A DNA stretch of 64,000 bases from a virus: the IMG/VR virus record IMGVR_UViG_3300042471_001276, positions 1 to 64,000 of that record; one strand, written 5' to 3'. How positions within the stretch are numbered: the first letter of the stretch is position 1; the number at the start of each line of letters is the position of its first letter. Positions 15,965 through 39,763 of the stretch are shown one piece after another. The notes under the pieces were generated by a model. It ran no database searches. It had not been told where the DNA came from and worked only from the letters and a program-made list of their open reading frames with translations. A program made the position numbers and the translations under genes.

Positions 15965-18238
15965 ATGGCTAAAAATATTGTAATCACCCCAAGAGTATCT
16001 GTACCCAACATATCATTTGACAATGGAGGGGAAATTACGTTGACGGTGACCCAAGGTGCAAGGATAAATTTTAATACTTCTTCTCAATCCAATCTACTTT
16101 ACATTGATATTTCTAACAAAATAATTTCTGTTGGAAATACTCTTAACGTTAAAGATAATTTAACCGTTGGCGGAACTCAAGTTATTAATGGAACTGCAAA
16201 TTGGGTTGGTCCAACAACTGGTATTTTGGGGAGTCAAGGTGCTAAAGGAGGCACAGGGGCTCAAGGTAGTGTAGGTGAAATAGGGTCTACAGGTGCACAA
16301 GGTACTCAAGGACCTAATAATACAACTCAAGGAGCGCAAGGAGCCACAGGAAATGTTCAAGGTGCTCAAGGACCTCAAGGCGATATTGGAGCGACAGGCC
16401 CCCAAGGACCAACAGGTTCACAAGGTAGTTTGGGACCAACAGGTGCACAAGGTAATACAGGCGCACAAGGTAATACAGGAGCCCAAGGTCATACAGGAGC
16501 TCAAGGAGCAACAGGACCAACAGGACCAACAGGAACTCAAGGTAACACAGGACATCCAGGAGCTCAAGGAGCAACAGGACCAACAGGACCAACAGGAACT
16601 CAAGGTAACACAGGACATCCAGGAGCTCAAGGAGCAACAGGACCAACAGGAAACACAGGAGCCACAGGACCAACAGGTTCACAAGGAGGAATAGGACCAA
16701 CAGGACCAACAGGTGCACAAGGTAATACAGGTTCAACAGGACATCCTGGTGCTCAAGGAAACACAGGTCCAACAGGGCCAACAGGTAACACAGGACCAAC
16801 AGGTAATACAGGCGCTCAGGGTTCAACAGGGCCAACGGGACCAACAGGTTCACAAGGAGCAACAGGTCACCCTGGAGCTCAAGGAGCCACTGGTACTACA
16901 GGACCAACAGGTAATACAGGACCAACAGGTAATACAGGAGCCCAAGGAACAACAGGTCCGACAGGACCAACAGGTTCACAAGGAGCAACAGGTCACCCTG
17001 GAGCTCAAGGAGCCACTGGTACGACAGGACCAATAGGTAATACAGGACCAACAGGTAATATAGGTGCTCAGGGTTCAACAGGACCAAAGGGACCACAAGG
17101 TTCACAAGGAGCAACAGGTCACCCTGGTGCACAAGGTTCAGGAGGTGCAACGGGAGCACAAGGTTCAACAGGAGGACAAGGAGCCCAAGGTTCTCAAGGA
17201 GGTGTGGGACCAACAGGAGCCCAAGGTAATCCTGGTGCAACAGGACACCCTGGTGCACAAGGTGCTACGGGTGTAACAGGAGCACAAGGTTCAACAGGAG
17301 GACAAGGAGCCCAAGGTTCTCAAGGAGGTGTGGGACCAACAGGAGCCCAAGGTAATCCTGGTGCAACAGGACACCCTGGTGCACAAGGTTCAGGAGGTGC
17401 AACGGGTAATCAGGGTGCTCAAGGAGTTGGTGCATATCAAGGAGCACAAGGGGCTCCTGGTGTGAGTGCTGGAGGACAAGGAGCCCAAGGAGCTCAAGGT
17501 ACAAATGGAACTCCTGGAGGACAGGGTGCACAAGGTGCGATAGGTTTTACACCAGGTACCTCAGGACCACAAGGAGCCCAGGGTGCTGGAGGACCAGGTG
17601 GAGGTCCAGGACCAACAGGTGCTCAAGGTAACGTTGGACCAACGGCAACAACTTGTTATTCCCATTCAGGATGTGCTGGTTCTAGTGTTCTCCAAGCTTG
17701 TAATTGCGTTCAAACCGCATTTTATTATCAACAAACTTCGTTTAACGACTTCCAAGGAATAAAATATAATAATTTAACCAATTGTCAAAACTCTACTTGT
17801 GATTGGAATGGTACTTATGATTATGTTGGTAGTGCTGCGGCTGCTTATGGTGCTTTAGGTTATAGTTGTGGTAGTGGTGGTACAGGATATCTTTGTGGTG
17901 GTTCACCATATTCAGATGAGAGACTAAAAAATGGAATTGAGACTCTTAAAAATGCTTTAGAAAACATAATGAAGATTGAGGCGGTTGAATATGATTGGAA
18001 TGAAAATTTAAGAGAATACGAATATTTCAAAACCCAACAAAAATTACATACAATAGGACTTATTGCCCAAAACGTTAGATTATATTATCCTGAAGCGGTA
18101 AGAATTAATAATGACGGGTATTATTCAATTGATTATACAAAATTAAATGCTGTGTTGGTAGAAGGTATCAAAGAGCAATCAATATTTATCGAAAGTATCG
18201 ATAAAGAATTAGATTATATAGAAACAAAACTTAGTTAA
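15965..18238 (+). CDS. Collagen-like tail fibre 1 with S74 chaperone
   Basis: 757 aa. A beta head domain (residues 1-85) is followed by about 157 Gly-X-Y triplets (88-558), mostly GPT, GAQ, GNT and GHP. Then comes a Cys-rich tip (about 560-645, with C-x4-C and several further Cys) and a peptidase S74 intramolecular chaperone (about 650-757) starting '[12 protein letters not shown]'. The serine of SDERLK is the expected self-cleavage residue. Chaperones of this type trimerise phage fibres and are then cut off. The Cys-rich tip, absent from the two paralogues, could be the receptor-binding part. Confidence 0.9.
16220..17640 (+). repeat. Gly-X-Y coding repeat tract 1
   Basis: Degenerate 9-nt units encoding GXY, with near-identical longer copies (for example around 16500-16560 and 16560-16630; also around 17130-17250 and 17250-17370). 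Could expand or contract by recombination. Confidence 0.9.
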
Positions 18239-20430
18239 TGGCTAATATTATAATATATCCCCAAGGTAATGTAGGAAATACGAATCCACAAGTTGTTTTC
18301 AATGACGGTTCTACCACATTGCAATTCAATGTTGGAGTATCGACATTAACTCTTTCATCTAGTACTGTATCTTCAGGTGTTCAATTAGGACCACAAAATG
18401 TTGTTGTTTCAGGCGCTAGTGCGCAAGGTACAAGTATCTCAGAAGGAAACGTATACGTTGGTGGGGTTAAAATGATTAACTATGACGCAACTTGGGTTGG
18501 TCCATCATCAGGAATTGCGGGGGCACAAGGACCAACAGGTGCACAAGGTAATACAGGTGCACAAGGTAACAAAGGAGGACAGGGTTCTCAAGGAGCAACA
18601 GGAAGTTTAGGAGCGGATGGAGCTCAAGGGCCAATTGGACCTCAAGGGTCTCAAGGAAATGTTGGTTTCCAAGGAACACAAGGTTTCCAAGGACCAACAG
18701 GACCAACAGGTGCTCAAGGTGCTAATACAGGGGCGCAAGGAAATACAGGAGCACAAGGAGGACAAGGGGCTCAAGGTACCCAAGGTGCGAACACGGGAGC
18801 TCAAGGAAACACAGGTCCAACAGGACCAACAGGTGCTCAAGGGACACAAGGAGCCAATACAGGTGCTCAAGGAAACACAGGTCCAACAGGACCAACAGGT
18901 GCTCAAGGGACACAAGGAGCCAATACAGGTGCTCAAGGACCAACAGGACCACAAGGGGCTCAAGGACCTACTGGCCCGACAGGGGCACAAGGTCCAACTG
19001 GACCACAAGGAGCTCAAGGTTCGACAGGTGCTCAAGGTACACAAGGTGCTAATACAGGAGCCCAAGGTGCTTTAGGTTCTCAAGGAGCACAAGGACCAAC
19101 AGGACCACAAGGAGCACAAGGTACAACAGGACCACAAGGTACAACAGGACCACAAGGTGCTCAAGGTACACAAGGGGCTAATACAGGTGCCCAAGGTGCT
19201 TTAGGTTCTCAAGGAGCACAAGGTCCAACAGGACCACAAGGTGCTCAAGGGACAGGAGGACCACAAGGTACAACAGGACCACAAGGTGCTCAAGGGTCTC
19301 AAGGAGGAAGTACAGGAGCCCAAGGTGCTTTAGGTTCTCAAGGAGCACAAGGTCCAACAGGACCACAAGGTGCTCAAGGGACAGGAGGACCACAAGGGCC
19401 AACAGGTATATCAGGAGCTCAAGGTACACAAGGAGCCAATACAGGAGGACAAGGAAATGTTGGTAATACAGGAGCTCAAGGTGCTGTAGGGTTCCAAGGA
19501 GCTGGAGGTCCAGGAGGACCACAAGGTACAACAGGACCACAAGGTGCTCAAGGGTCTCAAGGAGGAAGTACAGGAGGACAAGGAAATGTTGGTAATACAG
19601 GGGCTCAAGGCGCTGTAGGGTTCCAAGGAGCTGGAGGTCCAGGAGGACCACAAGGTTCTCAAGGACCACAAGGAGCCCAAGGTTCTCAAGGTGGAAATAC
19701 AGGTGCTCAAGGACCTTTAGGAAATGTTGGTGCTCAAGGTGCTGTAGGGTTCCAAGGAGCTGGAGGTCCAGGAGGACCACAAGGTTCTCAAGGACCACAA
19801 GGAGCCCAAGGTTCTCAAGGTGGAAGTACAGGTGCTCAAGGCGCTCAAGGTTCTCAAGGAGACGGTGGAGGTACTTTATCTGGACCACAAGGAGCTCAAG
19901 GAGCCCAAGGTGCGGTAGGTACACCTGGTGCAACAGGAGCCCAAGGTGCGGCAGGTAACAATGGTACAACAGGAGCCCAAGGTGCTCAAGGACCCTCAGG
20001 TGGAATACCAACAGGTAATACAGGAGCACAAGGTGGACCAGGACCAACAGGACCACAAGGTGCTCAAGGTTCACAAGGACCACCATCAGATAGAAGATTG
20101 AAAGATAATATCAAGAAACTTGAAAATGTTATTGATACTGCAAAAAAAATACAAGGGGTTTCTTTTGAATGGGATGAAACTCATGAAAAAATATCAAAAC
20201 ATGAGTATATCCACTTCAAGTCTGCGTTTTCTGGAACTGCAATTGGATTCATTGCTCAAGAGATAGAAAAAGTTGTCCCTGATGTTGTATTTACAAGTGA
20301 CGATGGATTCAAATCGGTTGAATACGGACAATTAGTTAGTATTGGTGTTGGAGCGGTTCAAGAACAACAAACAAGGATAGAATCTATTTATAAAAGAATA
20401 AACAAACTTAAAGAAGTAATAGGTGGCTGA
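18238..20430 (+). CDS. Collagen-like tail fibre 2 with S74 chaperone
   Basis: 730 aa. Start overlaps the previous stop by one base. Beta head (1-94), then about 520 residues of Gly-X-Y broken by regular GANTGAQG-type interruptions, then an S74 chaperone beginning '[12 protein letters not shown]' near residue 617. The head shares 'NIIIYP' and 'WVGPSSGI' features with fibre 1, so the genes are paralogues. No Cys-rich tip: the collagen runs straight into the chaperone, so after cleavage the fibre would end in collagen. Confidence 0.9.
18520..20090 (+). repeat. Gly-X-Y coding repeat tract 2
   Basis: Long tandem array with near-identical blocks of 60-120 nt (for example around 18800-18860 and 18860-18930). 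Confidence 0.9.
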
Positions 20431-22507
20431 GAATATAATTATAACGCCAGGTAGTGGTACAATCGATTTTTACGATTCAGGTAATACTTTAACGACATTA
20501 ATTGTTGAATCAGGTAGCTTAAAATTTAAAAGAGCTGGGGGAACATACCTTGCTTTGGATAATACATATCCAAACTTTAAAGTTACTCTTGGTAATTTAT
20601 ATGTAGGAAACGCACTTCAAAATAACTTTGGAAATGTAATTAACTCTACAGGTTGGTTGGGAAATCCATTACCAACAGGTCCACAAGGTGCTCAAGGTTC
20701 ACAAGGTGCTCAAGGTTCACAAGGACCCACAGGACCACAAGGAGCCCAAGGTAATCAAGGGGCTCAAGGACCAACAGGGGCTCAAGGACCAGTTGGACCA
20801 ACAGGTGCTCAAGGGCCACAAGGAGCTTTAGGTCCTCAAGGACCAACAGGTCCTCAAGGAGCACAGGGAGGACAAGGTGCACAGGGAAACCAAGGAGCAC
20901 AGGGAAATACAGGTTCACAAGGAACTACAGGAGGACAAGGAGCCCAAGGAACACAAGGACCGACAGGACCTCAAGGAGCCCAAGGAACTACAGGAGGACA
21001 AGGAGCCCAAGGAACACAAGGACCGACAGGACCACAAGGTGCTCAAGGAACAGGAGGTACCCAAGGAGCAACAGGACCAGTGGGTCCGCAAGGGTCACAA
21101 GGACCAACAGGACCACAAGGTGCTCAAGGAACAGTTGGACCATCACCAACAGGTGCTCAAGGGTCTCAGGGACCTGCAGGAGGACAAGGAGCTCAAGGTC
21201 CAAAAGGACCACAAGGTTCACAAGGACCTGTAGGACCTCAAGGTTCACAAGGTGCGGTTGGAGCATCACCTGTAGGACCACAAGGGGCCCAAGGAACTGC
21301 AGGAGGACAAGGAGCTCAAGGTCCAAAAGGGCCACAAGGTTCACAAGGACCTGTAGGACCTCAAGGTTCCCAAGGAGCAGTCGGAGCATCACCTGTAGGA
21401 CCACAAGGAGCCCAAGGACCTGGTGGAGTACAAGGAGCTCAAGGTCCAAAAGGACCGCAAGGTTCACAAGGACCAACAGGACCTCAAGGTTCCCAAGGAG
21501 CAGTCGGAGCATCACCTGTAGGACCACAAGGAGCCCAAGGACCTGGTGGAGGGCAAGGAGCCCAAGGTTCACAAGGACCTCAAGGTGCTCAAGGTCCAAA
21601 AGGACCACAAGGTGCCCAAGGTAATACGGGAGCATCACCTGTAGGACCACAAGGAGCCCAAGGACCTGGTGGAGGACAAGGAGCCCAAGGTTCACAAGGA
21701 CCTCAAGGTGCTCAAGGTCCAAAAGGACCACAAGGAGCCCAAGGTAATACAGGAGGTTCACCAGGAGGAGCCCAAGGTGCTCAAGGTGGTGGTGGAGGCC
21801 AAGGAGCTCCAGGACCTATAGGACCTCAAGGTGCTCAAGGACCAAAAGGACCACAAGGAGCCCAAGGTAATACAGGAGGTTCACCAGGAGGAGCCCAAGG
21901 TGCTCAAGGTGGTGGTGGAGGCCAAGGAGCCCAAGGAGCCCAAGGAGCAAAGGGTGCTCAAGGGGCTAAAGCGGTACCAGGAGCTCAAGGAGCTCAAGGA
22001 GTTCAACCGACATATGCTCAAGGTGCACAAGGTGCTCAAGGTATTAACAGAGGGGCTGGACCAACAGGTGCTCAAGGAGGAACAGGACCTGACAACCCTG
22101 GACCACAAGGTGCTCAAGGACCAGGAGGAGGTCCAGGACCAACAGGTTCACAAGGAGCAACAGGGTCGCCAGGACCTTCAGATGTTAGATTAAAGAAAAA
22201 CATTAAAAAAATTGAAAGTCCGTTATCTAAGTTATTAAAATTAAGAGGTGTTTCATTCATTTGGAATTCCAAAAATCCAAACTTAGAGAATACAAAAGAT
22301 ATTGGTTTTGTGGCACAAGAAATTGCTCACGTTATACCTGAATTAGTATTTAAAGAAAATAACGGAAAAGATTTATATAAAGTAAAATATGGTGATATAA
22401 TAGCACTTTGTTTAGAAGCTGTTAAAGAACATGAAGAAATGATAAATTCTAAAGAAGAACGATTAAGTAAATTAGAATATAAGGCAAAAGAAAAGGGGTT
22501 AATCTAA
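20423..22507 (+). CDS. Collagen-like tail fibre 3 with S74 chaperone
   Basis: 694 aa, GTG start overlapping fibre 2 by 8 nt. Beta head (1-82), about 500 residues of Gly-X-Y with more GPQ, GPK and GGG triplets than its paralogues, then S74 chaperone from '[12 protein letters not shown]' near residue 586. Lys-containing triplets are commoner here, which matters if lysine or threonine is modified. Ends at a bidirectional terminator shared with the convergent metallopeptidase operon. Confidence 0.9.
20680..22170 (+). repeat. Gly-X-Y coding repeat tract 3
   Basis: Near-perfect internal copies of about 100-120 nt (for example around 21180-21290, 21290-21400 and 21400-21530). Confidence 0.9.
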
Positions 22508-34884: not shown

Positions 34885-34892
34885 TATATTTG
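34885..34892 (+). promoter_or_regulatory. Host-type -7 element TATATTTG, 3 nt before ATG
   Basis: TATATTTG-TGT-ATG; implies a leaderless mRNA for the adenosyltransferase gene. Confidence 0.5.
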
Positions 34893-34895
34893 TGT

Positions 34896-35450
34896 ATGGC
34901 AAAGAAAATATACACAAAAACAGGAGACCAAGGTCTAACTTCATTATTGGGGGGTACTAAAGTACCAAAGAACGATTGGAGAATTGAGGCATATGGTACG
35001 GTAGATGAATTGAATTCATTTATTGGTCTTTTAGGGGACAAATTACAAAGTAACAACTCTTCATTTTCATTCAGTTTTTTAGAGTTAGAAAAAATTCAAA
35101 ACAATTTATTCAAAATTGGTTCTGTTTTGTCTTATGACATGACCGCTGATTTAAAAATTGAACTACCAAATGTAACCGAAGCGGACGTTAAGAATTTGGA
35201 AGACTGGATGGATACAATGGAGTTAACATTACAGCCTTTGAAAAACTTTATCATACCAGGTGGACACGAGGCGGTTTCATTGGCTCATGTGTGTAGAACA
35301 GTATCAAGAAGAGCGGAAAGAAATACCGTACAAGCAATTCAATATCCAATCATTATGAAATACATCAACAGATTGAGTGATTACTTCTTCATGTTGAGTA
35401 GATATATTGCTTCAGAGGTTGGAGTAGAGGAAAAAATTTGGAAAGGTTAA
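34896..35450 (+). CDS. ATP:cob(I)alamin adenosyltransferase, PduO/MMAB type
   Basis: 184 aa from ATG 34896. 'KIYTKTGDQGLTSLLGG' at the N-terminus (ATP-binding P-loop-like), 'AYGTVDELNSFIG', and 'CRTVSRRAERNTV' plus 'YINRLSDYFFMLSRY' are the conserved blocks of PduO-type enzymes, which make adenosylcobalamin. Full length for the family. In a phage it could support a B12-dependent ribonucleotide reductase, of host or phage, during DNA synthesis. Own host-type promoter; converges with the DUF192 gene. Confidence 0.9.
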   Translation: MAKKIYTKTGDQGLTSLLGGTKVPKNDWRIEAYGTVDELNSFIGLLGDKLQSNNSSFSFSFLELEKIQNNLFKIGSVLSYDMTADLKIELPNVTEADVKNLEDWMDTMELTLQPLKNFIIPGGHEAVSLAHVCRTVSRRAERNTVQAIQYPIIMKYINRLSDYFFMLSRYIASEVGVEEKIWKG

Positions 35451-35814: not shown

Positions 35815-36234
35815 ATGGAAAAGAAAAGGTACGTAGGTGTTATGGTTAAATGTAAAGATAAGATACTTCTTTGCAAAAGAAATAACCAAGGTTCATTCCC
35901 AGGTATGTGGTCCATCCCTGGCGGAAAGTTGGAAGATAATGAAACCACACAAGAGGGGGCAAAAAGAGAATTCTTAGAGGAAACCGCTGTAGACATTTCT
36001 GATATGGACTTACAATTCATTGGTTTAATACCAAGACATACTCGTGACGGTAAGAAGGTTAAAGGTCTTATGTATGTGTATCTTTTGACTGTTGAAAATG
36101 AAATCGAACCTGATTTGGAAAAAGCGATTGACGGTAATGAACATACTGAATGGGATTATTTTCCATTAAGTGGAATCAAACCTGAAAATAGCGGTGAATA
36201 TATGTATAAACTTGCAGAAATTATATTAAAATGA
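35815..36234 (+). CDS. Nudix hydrolase
   Basis: 139 aa. Nudix box at residues 37-59: G37, E43, R51-E52, E55-E56, with Ala instead of the usual Gly at position 58. MutT-like length and 'FPGMWSIPGGKLE' context suggest a nucleotide pyrophosphohydrolase, perhaps cleaning oxidised dNTPs. The start is 14 bp from the divergent DUF192 start. ATGA overlap with a TM microprotein downstream. Confidence 0.9.
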   Translation: MEKKRYVGVMVKCKDKILLCKRNNQGSFPGMWSIPGGKLEDNETTQEGAKREFLEETAVDISDMDLQFIGLIPRHTRDGKKVKGLMYVYLLTVENEIEPDLEKAIDGNEHTEWDYFPLSGIKPENSGEYMYKLAEIILK

Positions 36235-36341
36235 TTACAGTAGTATTGTCATTAATTGGTGTTGTTATATTTGTTGGAGTATATGGATGGATTTCAATCA
36301 ACAGACAAATAAAAAATATGATTGATGATATTGATTTTTAA
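36231..36341 (+). CDS. 36-aa single-TM microprotein
   Basis: One membrane helix (residues 2-20) then a polar, acidic-ended tail. ATGA overlap with the Nudix stop supports translation. Function unknown. Confidence 0.5.
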   Translation: MITVVLSLIGVVIFVGVYGWISINRQIKNMIDDIDF

Positions 36342-36352
36342 AAAAAATGTTC

Positions 36353-36360
36353 TATCTTTG
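36353..36360 (+). promoter_or_regulatory. Host-type -7 element TATCTTTG of small RNA 1
   Basis: TATCTTTG right after the end of the coding operon. Confidence 0.6.
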
Positions 36361-36363
36361 TAG

Positions 36364-36428
36364 AACTTTTGGGGGAAATGGAGATATTTATATGTTCATG
36401 TCCGAAAGGACGAACACCCCAAAATAAG
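36364..36428 (+). ncRNA. Candidate small structured RNA 1
   Basis: Between a promoter and the next promoter. TTTTGGGG (36367-36374) pairs with CCCCAAAA (36417-36424); inside, TGTTC/GAACA and GTCC/GGAC close a GAAA tetraloop at 36404-36407. An 11-codon ORF (36393-36428) also fits but the pairing looks stronger. Confidence 0.55.
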
Positions 36429-36444
36429 TTTCATAAAAAAAAGA

Positions 36445-36476
36445 TTTGATTGTTTGAAAAAACATTCTTACCTTTG
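36445..36476 (+). promoter_or_regulatory. Promoter of RNA unit 1 (TTTG-N20-TACCTTTG)
   Basis: TTTG at 36445 and TACCTTTG at 36469-36476. The 43-nt promoter block is nearly identical to that at 36885-36916. Confidence 0.75.
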
Positions 36477-36534
36477 TGAAACGAAAATCCCATAAGAAAG
36501 TTTTCGAGAGAATTCAAACCTTGTGGGATTTTTT
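36477..36534 (+). ncRNA. Leader RNA with terminator hairpin, unit 1
   Basis: AATCCCATAAG (36486-36496) pairs over 11 bp with CTTGTGGGATT (36520-36530), followed by T6. May be a free small RNA or an attenuator for the tRNA downstream. Confidence 0.6.
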
Positions 36535-36541
36535 ATCTGAA

Positions 36542-36550
36542 GTTCTTTAA
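36542..36550 (+). promoter_or_regulatory. boxA-like element before tRNA
   Basis: GTTCTTTAA between terminator hairpin and tRNA; similar to rRNA antitermination boxA (GCTCTTTAA in E. coli). Confidence 0.45.
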
Positions 36551-36563
36551 TATAAAAATATAT

Positions 36564-36636
36564 CGCGAGATAGTAGCAGCGGTAGCTCGCAAGGCTCATA
36601 ACCTTGAGGTCGGGGGTTCGATTCCCTCTCTCGCAA
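36564..36636 (+). tRNA. tRNA-Met (CAU), initiator-type
   Basis: Cloverleaf with acceptor stem CGCGAGA/TCTCGCA, whose first pair is a C-A mismatch as in bacterial initiator tRNA-fMet. Anticodon stem CAAGG/CCTTG with loop CTCATAA (anticodon at 36597-36599), variable loop AGGTC, T-arm GGGGG-TTCGATT-CCCTC. The anticodon stem has two rather than three consecutive G-C pairs. The D-stem (GTAGC/GCTC) seems to have a bulged T. CCA is not encoded. Confidence 0.88.
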
Positions 36637-36641
36637 CTAAG

Positions 36642-36690
36642 AATAGGTTGACTACGTTAGTCGTAAAATTACGGTTCCCTATTTTTTTTT
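36642..36690 (+). terminator. Structured terminator after tRNA
   Basis: AATAGG (36642-36647) pairs with CCTATT (36678-36683) around inner hairpins GACTA/TAGTC and GTAA/TTAC, then T9. Confidence 0.75.
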
Positions 36691-36698
36691 ACAAAGAG

Positions 36699-36730
36699 TT
36701 TGACAAACTGAAAATGTTTTTCTATCTTTG
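36699..36730 (+). promoter_or_regulatory. Host-type promoter of small RNA 2 (TTTG-N20-TATCTTTG)
   Basis: TTTG 36699-36702, TATCTTTG 36723-36730. Confidence 0.75.
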
Positions 36731-36732
36731 TA

Positions 36733-36860
36733 GTCCAATCGGGTAAAACTGATTGGTGTCTTTGACAAACAGACGAATTAGCCTGTCCTATAAAGTGTAG
36801 GAGGTCAACAAGATAGTTGGATGATACTATCAAGGAAGAATGAATTCGTTTAAATCATCA
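36733..36860 (+). ncRNA. Candidate small structured RNA 2
   Basis: No ORF. Hairpin CCAATC/GATTGG (36735-36756), then a stem ACGAATT/AATTCGT (36773-36779 with 36843-36849) that encloses hairpins CCTA/TAGG and GATAGT/ACTATC, so a three-way junction. No strong terminator is visible; the 3' end is uncertain. Confidence 0.6.
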
Positions 36861-36884
36861 GTCAAAAAAAAAGTTTCTAAAAAG

Positions 36885-36916
36885 TTTGATTGTTTCCCAA
36901 AACATTCTTACCTTTG
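36885..36916 (+). promoter_or_regulatory. Promoter of RNA unit 2 (TTTG-N20-TACCTTTG)
   Basis: TTTG 36885-36888, TACCTTTG 36909-36916; near copy of the unit 1 promoter. Confidence 0.75.
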
Positions 36917-37027
36917 TGAAACAAATGAAGGAGACAGGTTGTAAAGATTCCTGTTGTTGATTATGAGACCTTTGGTTGATTATGAGACTTACTCAGGTTG
37001 TAAAGATTCCTTTCTCCTTCATTTTTA
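36917..37027 (+). ncRNA. Leader RNA with A-B-B-A repeats and terminator, unit 2
   Basis: ATGAAGGAGA (36925-36934) pairs with TCTCCTTCAT (37013-37022), then T5. Between them AGGTTGTAAAGATTCCT occurs at 36936-36952 and 36995-37011, and TTGATTATGAGAC at 36957-36969 and 36976-36988. Free small RNA or attenuator of the large RNA downstream. Confidence 0.65.
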
Positions 37028-37034
37028 AAAGTAC

Positions 37035-37044
37035 GTTCTTTGAA
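37035..37044 (+). promoter_or_regulatory. boxA-like element before large RNA
   Basis: GTTCTTTGAA, matching the element before the tRNA. Confidence 0.45.
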
Positions 37045-37049
37045 TTAAA

Positions 37050-37900
37050 ATATTGGCGGTCTATAGTCGTTAAATAAACCATGAAAGTGGTATAAAGTGA
37101 CTTAGTTTGGTTGAACTAAGTTGCGGCTTCCGAAAGGGAGCTCGAGTAGACAAGCGAGATATCGTTAGACCTTTAGTACCGAGGGTGACACTGTAGGGAA
37201 AATGGTTTGACGACCAAGCGATGTGGGTCGTTTGGTTGAGGTGGGAACACCAATAAGAATAACTCGTAGAACTGTTGCAAGACATATGGTCATCCAACCA
37301 TACGATTGCGGAGTTCAATATCAGGGTGGTCTTAAAATCGAAAGATAAGACCTCGTACAGGTGGTGCTGTTGTAGTCCTTAACTTGACTCTACCAAGAGT
37401 TCTGTTATGAAGATGACCCAAAATATCGAGGCAGGGATGTCTCAGAGAGTAGTTTAGTATTCTGTTGTTCAAAAGACGACGGAGCTGGCGACGGGCCACT
37501 ACTTTCTTAATCCACAAACCACTTACTTTGTTAATTTTGGTTTAACAAAACTATAAATCAGATAAAGGAAAAGTGCTCGTCAGTTCTGGATGACAGGTCA
37601 CTACATAGTCGTGAGATGTTCACGGCCATGAAGGGTCCCAAGCCCGACATGATTTTCACCAAAGTTCTCTAATCTCGCAAGGATTAATTGGGGTGGCAAC
37701 CTCGAAGAGTGATGAGTAATGAGAGAGTGATTCAGAACTTAAGGATTGGTTAATCTAATTGACCGTGACTGAGAGTTACTACTCAAAAGGTAGTGGAAAT
37801 CGGAGGAAATAATAATCTCCCGTAAAGATTCTCAAATTAAGGTGTATTCTCAGCCTGAATGCCAAATTGACCCTGACTATTTCCATAGTTGGGGTTTTTT
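37050..37900 (+). ncRNA. Large structured noncoding RNA, about 850 nt
   Basis: No credible ORF over about 850 nt and base composition richer in G than neighbours. Many local helices: 37100-37121 (8 bp), 37127-37140 (GAAA loop), 37210-37231, 37240-37251 (GGAA loop), 37261-37315 (nested), 37328-37352 (with a GAAA-capped inner stem), 37527-37549 (8 bp), 37610-37624, 37778-37794, 37802-37820. It ends in an intrinsic terminator at 37871-37900. Size, lack of coding, several GNRA loops and a tRNA next door recall the GOLLD and ROOL giant RNAs of phages, but I cannot confirm membership. rRNA, tmRNA and RNase P signatures were not seen. The 5' end is uncertain (after boxA, about 37050). Confidence 0.75.
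37871..37900 (+). terminator. Intrinsic terminator of the large RNA
   Basis: CCCTGACTAT-TTCC-ATAGTTGGGG, 10 bp with two G-U pairs, then T6. Confidence 0.88.
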
Positions 37901-37914
37901 GTTATTATTAATTT

Positions 37915-38832
37915 ATGAATGTAATTATGGTAGCTGAGGACATCAATAAAGATGGCTCATTCAAACAGACAAAGGGGGAAATCATGTGTACGGTTTCCAA
38001 TCTTGCATTCATAAAACATTATTATCCTGACTTTCACACAATACTTTTTGTAGATAAATTTACCAGACCATATTATGAATCGTTCGGTATTACCGAACTG
38101 TTCGATGAGGTTAATGATATCATGCTGAACGAACATGTTGATATCGATAAAAATGTGTTTTGGGCGGCGGGTAAACTAATGGCTCAAAGAATAACACCAG
38201 GACCAACATTAACTATGGATTTGGATTTTTGGGTTCGAGCTGACATATCAATGTTTGGAATTTTTGATTCAGATATTTCTTGTCTTTGGGTTGAAGAAAT
38301 AAATGAAAAGTATTACCATAGACATGAGGATGCATTAAAAAACTCAAACTTAAAAATTGAATGTGATTGGGACCAATATGGAATAAATGTTTCGTTTCTT
38401 TATTTAAAAGATGAAGAATTTAAAAATACATATTGTGATTTATCAATAGAATACATGAAATCAATGTACGGTAAAATACCAAACAATCTTTCATTTGAAG
38501 ATAAAACAAAATACATTTTATTTGCGGAACAATATCTTTTGAATCAAATTGCCAAAAAATATGATAAAAAAGTTAAAGTTCTTGTTGATGATTTTTATGA
38601 CATTACCAATTTGAAACATGTTGAATCCATTGGTGTTCATATGAAAACTTGTCCAAAATACATTTATCATATGGGTAACCACAAACACGATTACAGAGCA
38701 AAGAATAGTTTTGCCCTTGAAGGAATAGAGATATTTTATAAAACAACCACATCGGTAATAACCGATGATAGGTTTATTAGAGTAATAAATAACATTTATA
38801 ACAAATCAGAATATGAAGGGTGTTTTTGTTAA
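37915..38832 (+). CDS. Glycosyltransferase-like protein (GT-A type, DUF6734-like)
   Basis: 305 aa. The N-terminal alpha/beta part contains 'LTMDLDFWVRAD' (residues 99-110), a DxD-like metal site as in GT-A glycosyltransferases. The gene shares layout with the next one ('FWAAGK' here, 'FWTSGK' there, before the DLDF motif), so they are tandem paralogues. I recall DUF6734 for such Bacteroidota proteins, uncertain. Likely sugar transfer to a phage or host structure. Starts 15 nt after the large-RNA terminator. Confidence 0.6.
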   Translation: MNVIMVAEDINKDGSFKQTKGEIMCTVSNLAFIKHYYPDFHTILFVDKFTRPYYESFGITELFDEVNDIMLNEHVDIDKNVFWAAGKLMAQRITPGPTLTMDLDFWVRADISMFGIFDSDISCLWVEEINEKYYHRHEDALKNSNLKIECDWDQYGINVSFLYLKDEEFKNTYCDLSIEYMKSMYGKIPNNLSFEDKTKYILFAEQYLLNQIAKKYDKKVKVLVDDFYDITNLKHVESIGVHMKTCPKYIYHMGNHKHDYRAKNSFALEGIEIFYKTTTSVITDDRFIRVINNIYNKSEYEGCFC

Positions 38833-39763
38833 TTGGACAAAACCATACGAAGAAAGAAAACGTTTGAGGGGGCACGCCTTCAAAATACACAGAGAACAGT
38901 TATCTGAGGAATATACAACAACAGATGAAGAGTTGTTATTCACAATATTATCTGTTGGATACTGGAAAAAATTTAACGGTCCTACCAAACTTTATACGGA
39001 TAAAAAAGGTTTGGCTTACTACGCCAAGAATAACATGTTGGACTTATGGGATGAAATTGATACTCATACCCTGGAGAACTATAAAGACATTGACCCAGCT
39101 CAGTTTTGGACATCAGGTAAATCGTATTGTATAGGAAAAGAACAAGTGCCATTTTGTTTTATGGATTTAGATTTTATGGTTATGGAGAAATTACCTCAAT
39201 GGGTTTTTGAGTCTGAAGTAACCATACCATACTGGGAAATACCAAGAGGATATTATTACCCTAATGAGGACCAATACAAAGAAATAAAACATTGGCAACC
39301 CCCATCTGACTATTCATATAAGATGATGATTCCAAACACATCTTTTTTATACATTGGGAGTGACAAAGTCCAATCCGAATACCTCAAAGACCATCTCGAG
39401 GCGGTTGACACCAAAAATGAAATACCTGAATGGTTTTGGTTAGTTACTGACCAAGGTTTATTTGGACAAGTTCTTAGGAGGTTCAATGTCAAAACTAATA
39501 CTCTTACCGATAAAGTATTTTTGTCTGACCACGAAGGTTATGAAGGTAAAGTCGGTGAAGCAACTGGATTTTACTATTTGACCAACGCGGATTATTCCAA
39601 AGACAACCTTAAATGGTGGCACGTATGGACAAGGAAAGTTTTATACAATCAAGACGAAAATGTTAGAGTTTCTGACTGCAAAGAGTTCTACCAACGAATT
39701 ATGGATGAACTACCTAAGTACAAACACATACTAAATAACCCTCGTTTGGTGAGGTATAGATAA
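38813..39763 (+). CDS. Glycosyltransferase-like protein (GT-A type, DUF6734-like)
   Basis: 316 aa, overlaps the upstream gene by 20 nt. 'CFMDLDFMVMEKLP' (near residue 117) is the presumed DxD region; 'PYWEIPRGYYYPNEDQY' and 'LVTDQGLFGQVL' are further family-like blocks. Substrate unknown. Confidence 0.6.
   Translation: MKGVFVNWTKPYEERKRLRGHAFKIHREQLSEEYTTTDEELLFTILSVGYWKKFNGPTKLYTDKKGLAYYAKNNMLDLWDEIDTHTLENYKDIDPAQFWTSGKSYCIGKEQVPFCFMDLDFMVMEKLPQWVFESEVTIPYWEIPRGYYYPNEDQYKEIKHWQPPSDYSYKMMIPNTSFLYIGSDKVQSEYLKDHLEAVDTKNEIPEWFWLVTDQGLFGQVLRRFNVKTNTLTDKVFLSDHEGYEGKVGEATGFYYLTNADYSKDNLKWWHVWTRKVLYNQDENVRVSDCKEFYQRIMDELPKYKHILNNPRLVRYR

Follow-up and report, generated by a model that had tools for sequence, protein, structure and literature searches.

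The 64-kb virus record analysed here (hereafter the window, meaning the whole stretch of 64,000 nucleotides) contains a large structured noncoding RNA at 37052-37856 on the plus strand, which is a GOLLD RNA. It is a full-length GOLLD from a Bacteroidota phage, probably a large one, and it adds one member to a known class rather than founding a new one. The RNA body begins at about 37052, and with its leader and terminator the unit extends over about 36922-37902. As a whole, the explanation that we prefer and regard as highly probable is a GOLLD RNA with an rRNA-style leader, boxA antitermination and a 14-mer cage. GOLLD is among the largest natural RNA-only assemblies known, and a conserved rRNA-type boxA is a definite element that can be mutated to learn how phages express a giant RNA of this kind.

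The assignment is based on a search with cmscan, one of the checks that the initial annotation of this DNA had named. Positions 37445-37856 (plus strand) matched the Rfam family RF02032 with 335 bits (E 2.6e-95, gathering cut-off 150) over model positions 1-416 of 416, and no other family exceeded its cut-off within 37033-37900. The ROOL model had no match over its cut-off in the window, nor at E up to 1 in 36200-38000. The Rfam model represents the 3' domain only, and the 5' domain (37052-37444, plus strand), which is the cap half in the published structure, was assessed separately by an end-to-end alignment of 38 relatives. The predicted fold of the transcript (36922-37905) reached -300.6 kcal/mol vs a shuffle mean of -258.5 (z -5.3, from only 20 shuffles). 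No credible ORF covered 37033-37900, where the only overlapping open frames, of 61 and 82 aa, lie on the minus strand; protein-coding content was thus rejected for this region. The largest coding gap contains, on the plus strand, several Bacteroidota-type promoters (TTTG-N20-TAnnTTTG), small structured elements, a tRNA-Met, GOLLD and a terminator. The location near a tRNA gene (tRNA-Met at 36564) in a virus record agrees with the phage or prophage location near tRNA genes that is a trait of GOLLD.

Relatives were collected from IMG/VR by two scans with exact patterns and from phage records by one blastn search. A match was present at 82 loci; 63 sequences including the window were full-length and 38 were below 97% identity to each other, the 37 other nonredundant relatives sharing 57-81% identity with the window. 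The two-domain GOLLD layout, of about 800 nt or more in total, is found here as 37052-37856 plus the leader, and the 5' half was co-conserved with the 3' half in all 38 full-length relatives. Covariation was measured with a background-corrected G statistic in a home-made tree-based analogue of R-scape, against a null in which the inferred substitutions were placed again along the tree in columns drawn at random, with weights given by column rate. Among the 38 relatives, 28 pairs covaried at E of 0.05 or below (nine in the 5' domain, the rest in the 3' domain), and each was canonical in nearly every sequence. Covarying helices were another check named in the initial annotation. The large structured noncoding RNA that it had placed at 37033-37900 is confirmed by the RF02032 match, the covarying helices, the fold (z -5.3) and the lack of a credible ORF, and membership in GOLLD, offered there as an inference, was established by the full-model match and the covariation. 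The GNRA loops that it had pointed out are also present, as CUUCC-GAAA-GGGAG at 37127-37140, GGUG-GGAA-CACC at 37240-37251 and UC-GAAA-GA inside 37328-37352; in the relatives' alignment, the hairpin at 37240 varies in its stem and keeps its loop, and the GAAA loop at 37338 is nearly invariant.

The GOLLD RNA env-38 has been solved by cryo-EM as a closed hollow 14-mer, a D7 cage; it is about 830 nt long, lies downstream of a Met-tRNA and forms the cage from RNA alone (PMC12286853). With stem names assigned to window positions from the text and spacing of that paper, the contacts between its subunits can be followed in our alignment. The kissing bridge B7 joins J13/15 (37567-37568, plus strand) to L20 (37638-37639, plus strand) and is kept by compensatory G-C/C-G change: the intermolecular pair 37568-37638 is GC in 19 and CG in 19 relatives, and 37567-37639 is GC in 36 and UA in 2, so that both are canonical in 38/38. 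The dinucleotide of L21a (37677-37678, plus strand; GC here), which forms the self-kissing bridge B8 between the half-shells, is palindromic in every relative, being GC, CG or AU. In the L22 pseudoknot, the J17/22 strand (37742-37744, plus strand) pairs with 37754-37756; here 37743-37755 (GC34/AU3/GU1) and 37744-37754 (GC19/GU14/AU5) are canonical in 38/38 and 37742-37756 is AU in 37/38. A further pseudoknot helix, formed by 37493-37495 (plus strand) and 37576-37578, crosses 37445-37453/37498-37506; its pair 37493-37578 occurs as GC27/AU10/UA1, and 37494-37577 and 37495-37576 are canonical in 38/38. A variable A/U-rich linker at 37508-37565 (plus strand), which has low cmscan alignment confidence, no consensus-fold helix and no tRNA inside, corresponds by position to the loop of env-38 that is disordered inside the cage. 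The present RNA thus shares with env-38 the complete 3' domain, the two-domain layout of about 800 nt, the variable linker, the Met-tRNA neighbour, the L20-J13/15 bridge, the L21a palindrome and the L22 pseudoknot, but it occurs in a Bacteroidota phage, is preceded by a promoter, hairpin and boxA, and belongs to a set of relatives in which L21a also takes an A-U state, beyond the published GC/CG switch. ROOL RNA, which is also large, is encoded near tRNAs in phages and prophages and builds a hollow cage; its sequence and fold are different, however, and its cage is an 8-mer (PMC12286853). The alignment provides an independent check that the inter-subunit contacts of the published cage are under selection.

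The leader of the transcript resembles those of host rRNA operons. The host-type promoter noted in the initial annotation proved to be of the Bacteroidota type (TTTG-N20-TACCTTTG, 36885-36916, plus strand), and the boxA-like motif mentioned there was located at 37035-37043 (plus strand) as GTTCTTTGA. Between the two lies a leader hairpin (36922-37027, plus strand; fold z -2.8) with nested direct repeats (two copies of AGGTTGTAAAGATTCCT flanking two of GGTTGATTATGAGAC) at the position that boxB has in rrn leaders. Most relatives have the same layout, in which a TAnnTTTG promoter is followed after about 35 nt by boxA, with a short hairpin in between. The hairpin of the window is longer than the covarying one of most relatives, whose stems change compensatorily (TCGGA/TCCGA, TCAGGA/TCCTGA, CTTGGT/ACCAAG); in several relatives the nested repeats of the window are replaced by a TGATTATGAGACC...GGTTGATTATGAG repeat, located between boxA and GOLLD. 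The motif GTTCTTTGA was found within 200 nt upstream of GOLLD in 37/38 relatives (window included), at distances of 17-111 nt, a count that does not represent 37 independent events because the relatives share ancestry; the background expectation for GTTCTTT[AG]A in the same contigs was 0.018 sites per 200 nt. All nine positions were invariant, with 2.0 bits at each vs roughly 0.5 in most flanking columns. The varied spacing and the diverged flanks argue for selection on boxA without amounting to proof. The one relative with no boxA within 200 nt upstream was LR756502, and a first pattern for an extended boxA had no match in the window. Downstream, the 'perfect intrinsic terminator' of the initial annotation stood as a terminator (37869-37902, plus strand; stem 37869-37896, then a T run) but not as a perfect one, the continuous stem containing three G-U wobbles by inspection.

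Among 18 distinct Bacteroidota 16S leaders, 11 contained the same 9-mer, as did 2 of 4 others, and in these leaders it is boxA; the remaining 7 of the 18 did not have the exact GTTCTTTGA, which has variants such as GATCTTTGA. No consistent boxA was seen in ten matches to other GOLLD subtypes or fragments, several with <810 nt of upstream sequence. A general GOLLD trait was thus rejected, and the leader belongs to this lineage. In E. coli rrn leaders a boxB hairpin is followed by boxA, which suffices to recruit antitermination factors (PMC10250234). The GOLLD leaders of this lineage share with the bacterial rRNA operon leader (boxB-boxA-boxC, with Nus-factor antitermination; PMC10250234) the order of promoter, hairpin, boxA and long untranslated structured RNA, as well as the 9-mer of Bacteroidota 16S leaders; they differ in driving a phage cage RNA, on which Nus factors would presumably act. 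Lambda nut sites also place boxA and a hairpin on a phage RNA and recruit Nus factors (PMC10250234), as may happen here, but they lie on mRNA operons and work with the phage protein N, whereas the RNA here is a stable noncoding one. No mention of GOLLD together with boxA was found in the openly accessible literature that was searched, and the boxA leader of GOLLD appears undescribed in that literature.

Transcription would start near 36922 from the host-type promoter, and the emerging boxA would recruit host NusB/S10, so that polymerase could read the long untranslated RNA without Rho termination. NusB/S10 might also aid the folding of GOLLD, as proposed for rRNA. Transcription would end at the terminator near 37900, and 14 copies would then close into a hollow D7 cage as solved for env-38. 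These sequence features lead us to infer antitermination of the GOLLD transcript by host Nus factors; the conserved boxA suggests that these phages tap the ribosome-making transcription machinery of the host.

The initiator-type tRNA noted in the initial annotation is a predicted tRNA-Met (CAT) at 36564-36637 (plus strand), whose unpaired C1-A72 is the initiator mark; together with boxA, it was the most informative part of that annotation. It lies 414 nt upstream of GOLLD, preceded by a second boxA-like motif (GTTCTTTAA, 36542-36550, plus strand) and its own promoter (36445-36476). Across the relatives, 15 of the 23 tRNAs predicted no more than 500 nt from GOLLD were tRNA-Met, vs 8 of the 101 at greater distances (Fisher p 2e-8), at a relaxed threshold at which some non-Met types are likely false. 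Position 1-72 was unpaired in 12 of these 15; five of the Met genes came from one odd, possibly degenerate lineage with uncertain initiator status. In 9/38 relatives a tRNA-Met follows GOLLD at 5-17 nt, and many relatives have no tRNA nearby. A link between GOLLD and tRNA genes was already known (PMC12286853); the preference for Met is a refinement of it in this lineage, and this enrichment of usually initiator-like tRNAs may point to translation initiation.

BoxA also precedes other RNA genes. Besides those of GOLLD, 25 further promoter-boxA sites without a long ORF were found in the GOLLD contigs, most of them, by inspection, before tmRNA, tRNA or unclassified RNA. Genes for tmRNA occur on contigs L205, L104, L218, L106, L206 and others, several directly after boxA. 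It seems to us somewhat more probable than the opposite that Bacteroidota phages use boxA leaders of the host rRNA type to mark their genes for stable noncoding RNAs (GOLLD, tmRNA, tRNAs and the unclassified RNA); synthesis and folding of the giant cage-forming RNA would then take place on the antiterminated machinery that transcribes rRNA.

Several alternatives concern the RNA itself. A new class had been allowed for in the initial annotation; in the form of a giant phage RNA that is GOLLD-like only in part, it could appeal to the 5' half, which is outside the Rfam model. The full-model RF02032 match (335 bits) refutes it for the 3' domain and excludes a new class, the 5' half has been conserved together with the 3' half in each of the 38 full-length relatives, and env-38 GOLLD has a similar length (about 830 nt) and likewise lies downstream of a Met-tRNA, which leaves this alternative a negligible probability. 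That the phage carries a decayed derivative without a working cage is very improbable: GOLLD is present as a single copy in the record and is known here from sequence, but the copy in the window has retained its pairs in the bridge, the pseudoknots and the helices, among them compensatory states (GG:CC at B7, for one), and its promoter, boxA and terminator are intact.

Others accept GOLLD and differ on what it does or how it is transcribed. The nearby tRNAs, mostly Met, and the tRNA-Met located 5-17 nt downstream in 9/38 relatives would suit a carrier or processing partner of the neighbouring initiator tRNA in place of an independent cage; against this, many relatives have no tRNA nearby, the tRNA of the window is served by a separate promoter and boxA and lies 414 nt upstream, and the published cage forms from RNA alone, and we judge such a role improbable. 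It is unlikely, though less so, that GTTCTTTGA, instead of acting in antitermination, serves in processing, marks a start site or has persisted through common descent. The likeness to host leaders concerns a short motif, the relatives are kin and the evidence is sequence evidence, but nine positions are invariant between diverged flanks at spacings of 17-111 nt, the same element occurs in host 16S leaders and before unrelated tmRNA and tRNAs, and the hairpin precedes boxA as in rrn leaders (PMC10250234).

As for function, GOLLD expression rises during phage lysis (PMC12286853), and the same source cites pull-downs with ribosomes. In one Lactobacillus brevis prophage GOLLD was reported to be dispensable for phage production (PMC7567579), which makes a vital role unlikely there. 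Our preferred guess, a tentative one with perhaps a modest chance of being right, is that the cage acts on the translation machinery in lytic growth, for example by holding or shielding initiator tRNA or ribosomes. No protein gene family was conserved beside GOLLD, none within 6 kb occurring at more than 11/38 loci; a dedicated partner protein was accordingly rejected, which is consistent with an RNA-only function.

A Bacteroidota host is indicated by a cobalamin adenosyltransferase gene near GOLLD, the best 80 relatives of which were almost all in Bacteroidota records, and the promoter form and boxA agree with this. No GOLLD was found in the chromosomes of 148 Bacteroidota genomes, a weak negative, as the control was likewise without a match in them. 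GOLLD relatives occur on phages of 642 and 635 kb (LR756502 and LR745206); contigs of relatives are otherwise up to 251 kb, and a partial GOLLD match lies on a 304-kb contig.

Some minor observations were also made. About 320-400 nt before GOLLD, contigs L205, L104, L033, L218 and L153 encode the unclassified RNA, which is 130-160 nt long and has a promoter and boxA of its own. It has the core TCTAGGTCCGTAGGGCTACTGTTG...GAGGAAAGTGACTACGGGAC and matched no Rfam family at E up to 2; its GAGGAAAGT stretch is a candidate likeness to RNase P RNA. Three small elements of the window (36352-36428, 36480-36540 and 36732-36868) fold better than shuffles (z -2.7, -4.0 and -3.4), and each follows its own Bacteroidota-type -7 box. 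All three are kept in L188 and the one at 36352-36428 also in L016; nothing among these upstream elements exceeded an Rfam cut-off. A recurrent element of about 50 nt, GGTTGAC...GTTGTAAAA...GGTTTCCT within a GAG/CTC stem, lies upstream of GOLLD in L012, L205, L104 and L026, and the window has one like it after the tRNA (36637-36692). In L071, 10852-10913 is a near-threshold match to freshwater-1 RNA (71.8 bits vs a cut-off of 72). The cobalamin adenosyltransferase of the window (34890-35450, Pfam E 2.5e-55) is phage-borne. Two adjacent DUF6734 genes, the second just under the cut-off, directly follow the GOLLD terminator (37915-39763). Finally, three consecutive long tail-fibre genes occupy 15965-22507; Pfam assigns collagen-like repeats and an S74 chaperone end to the first two, and the third matches the same tail-fibre families.
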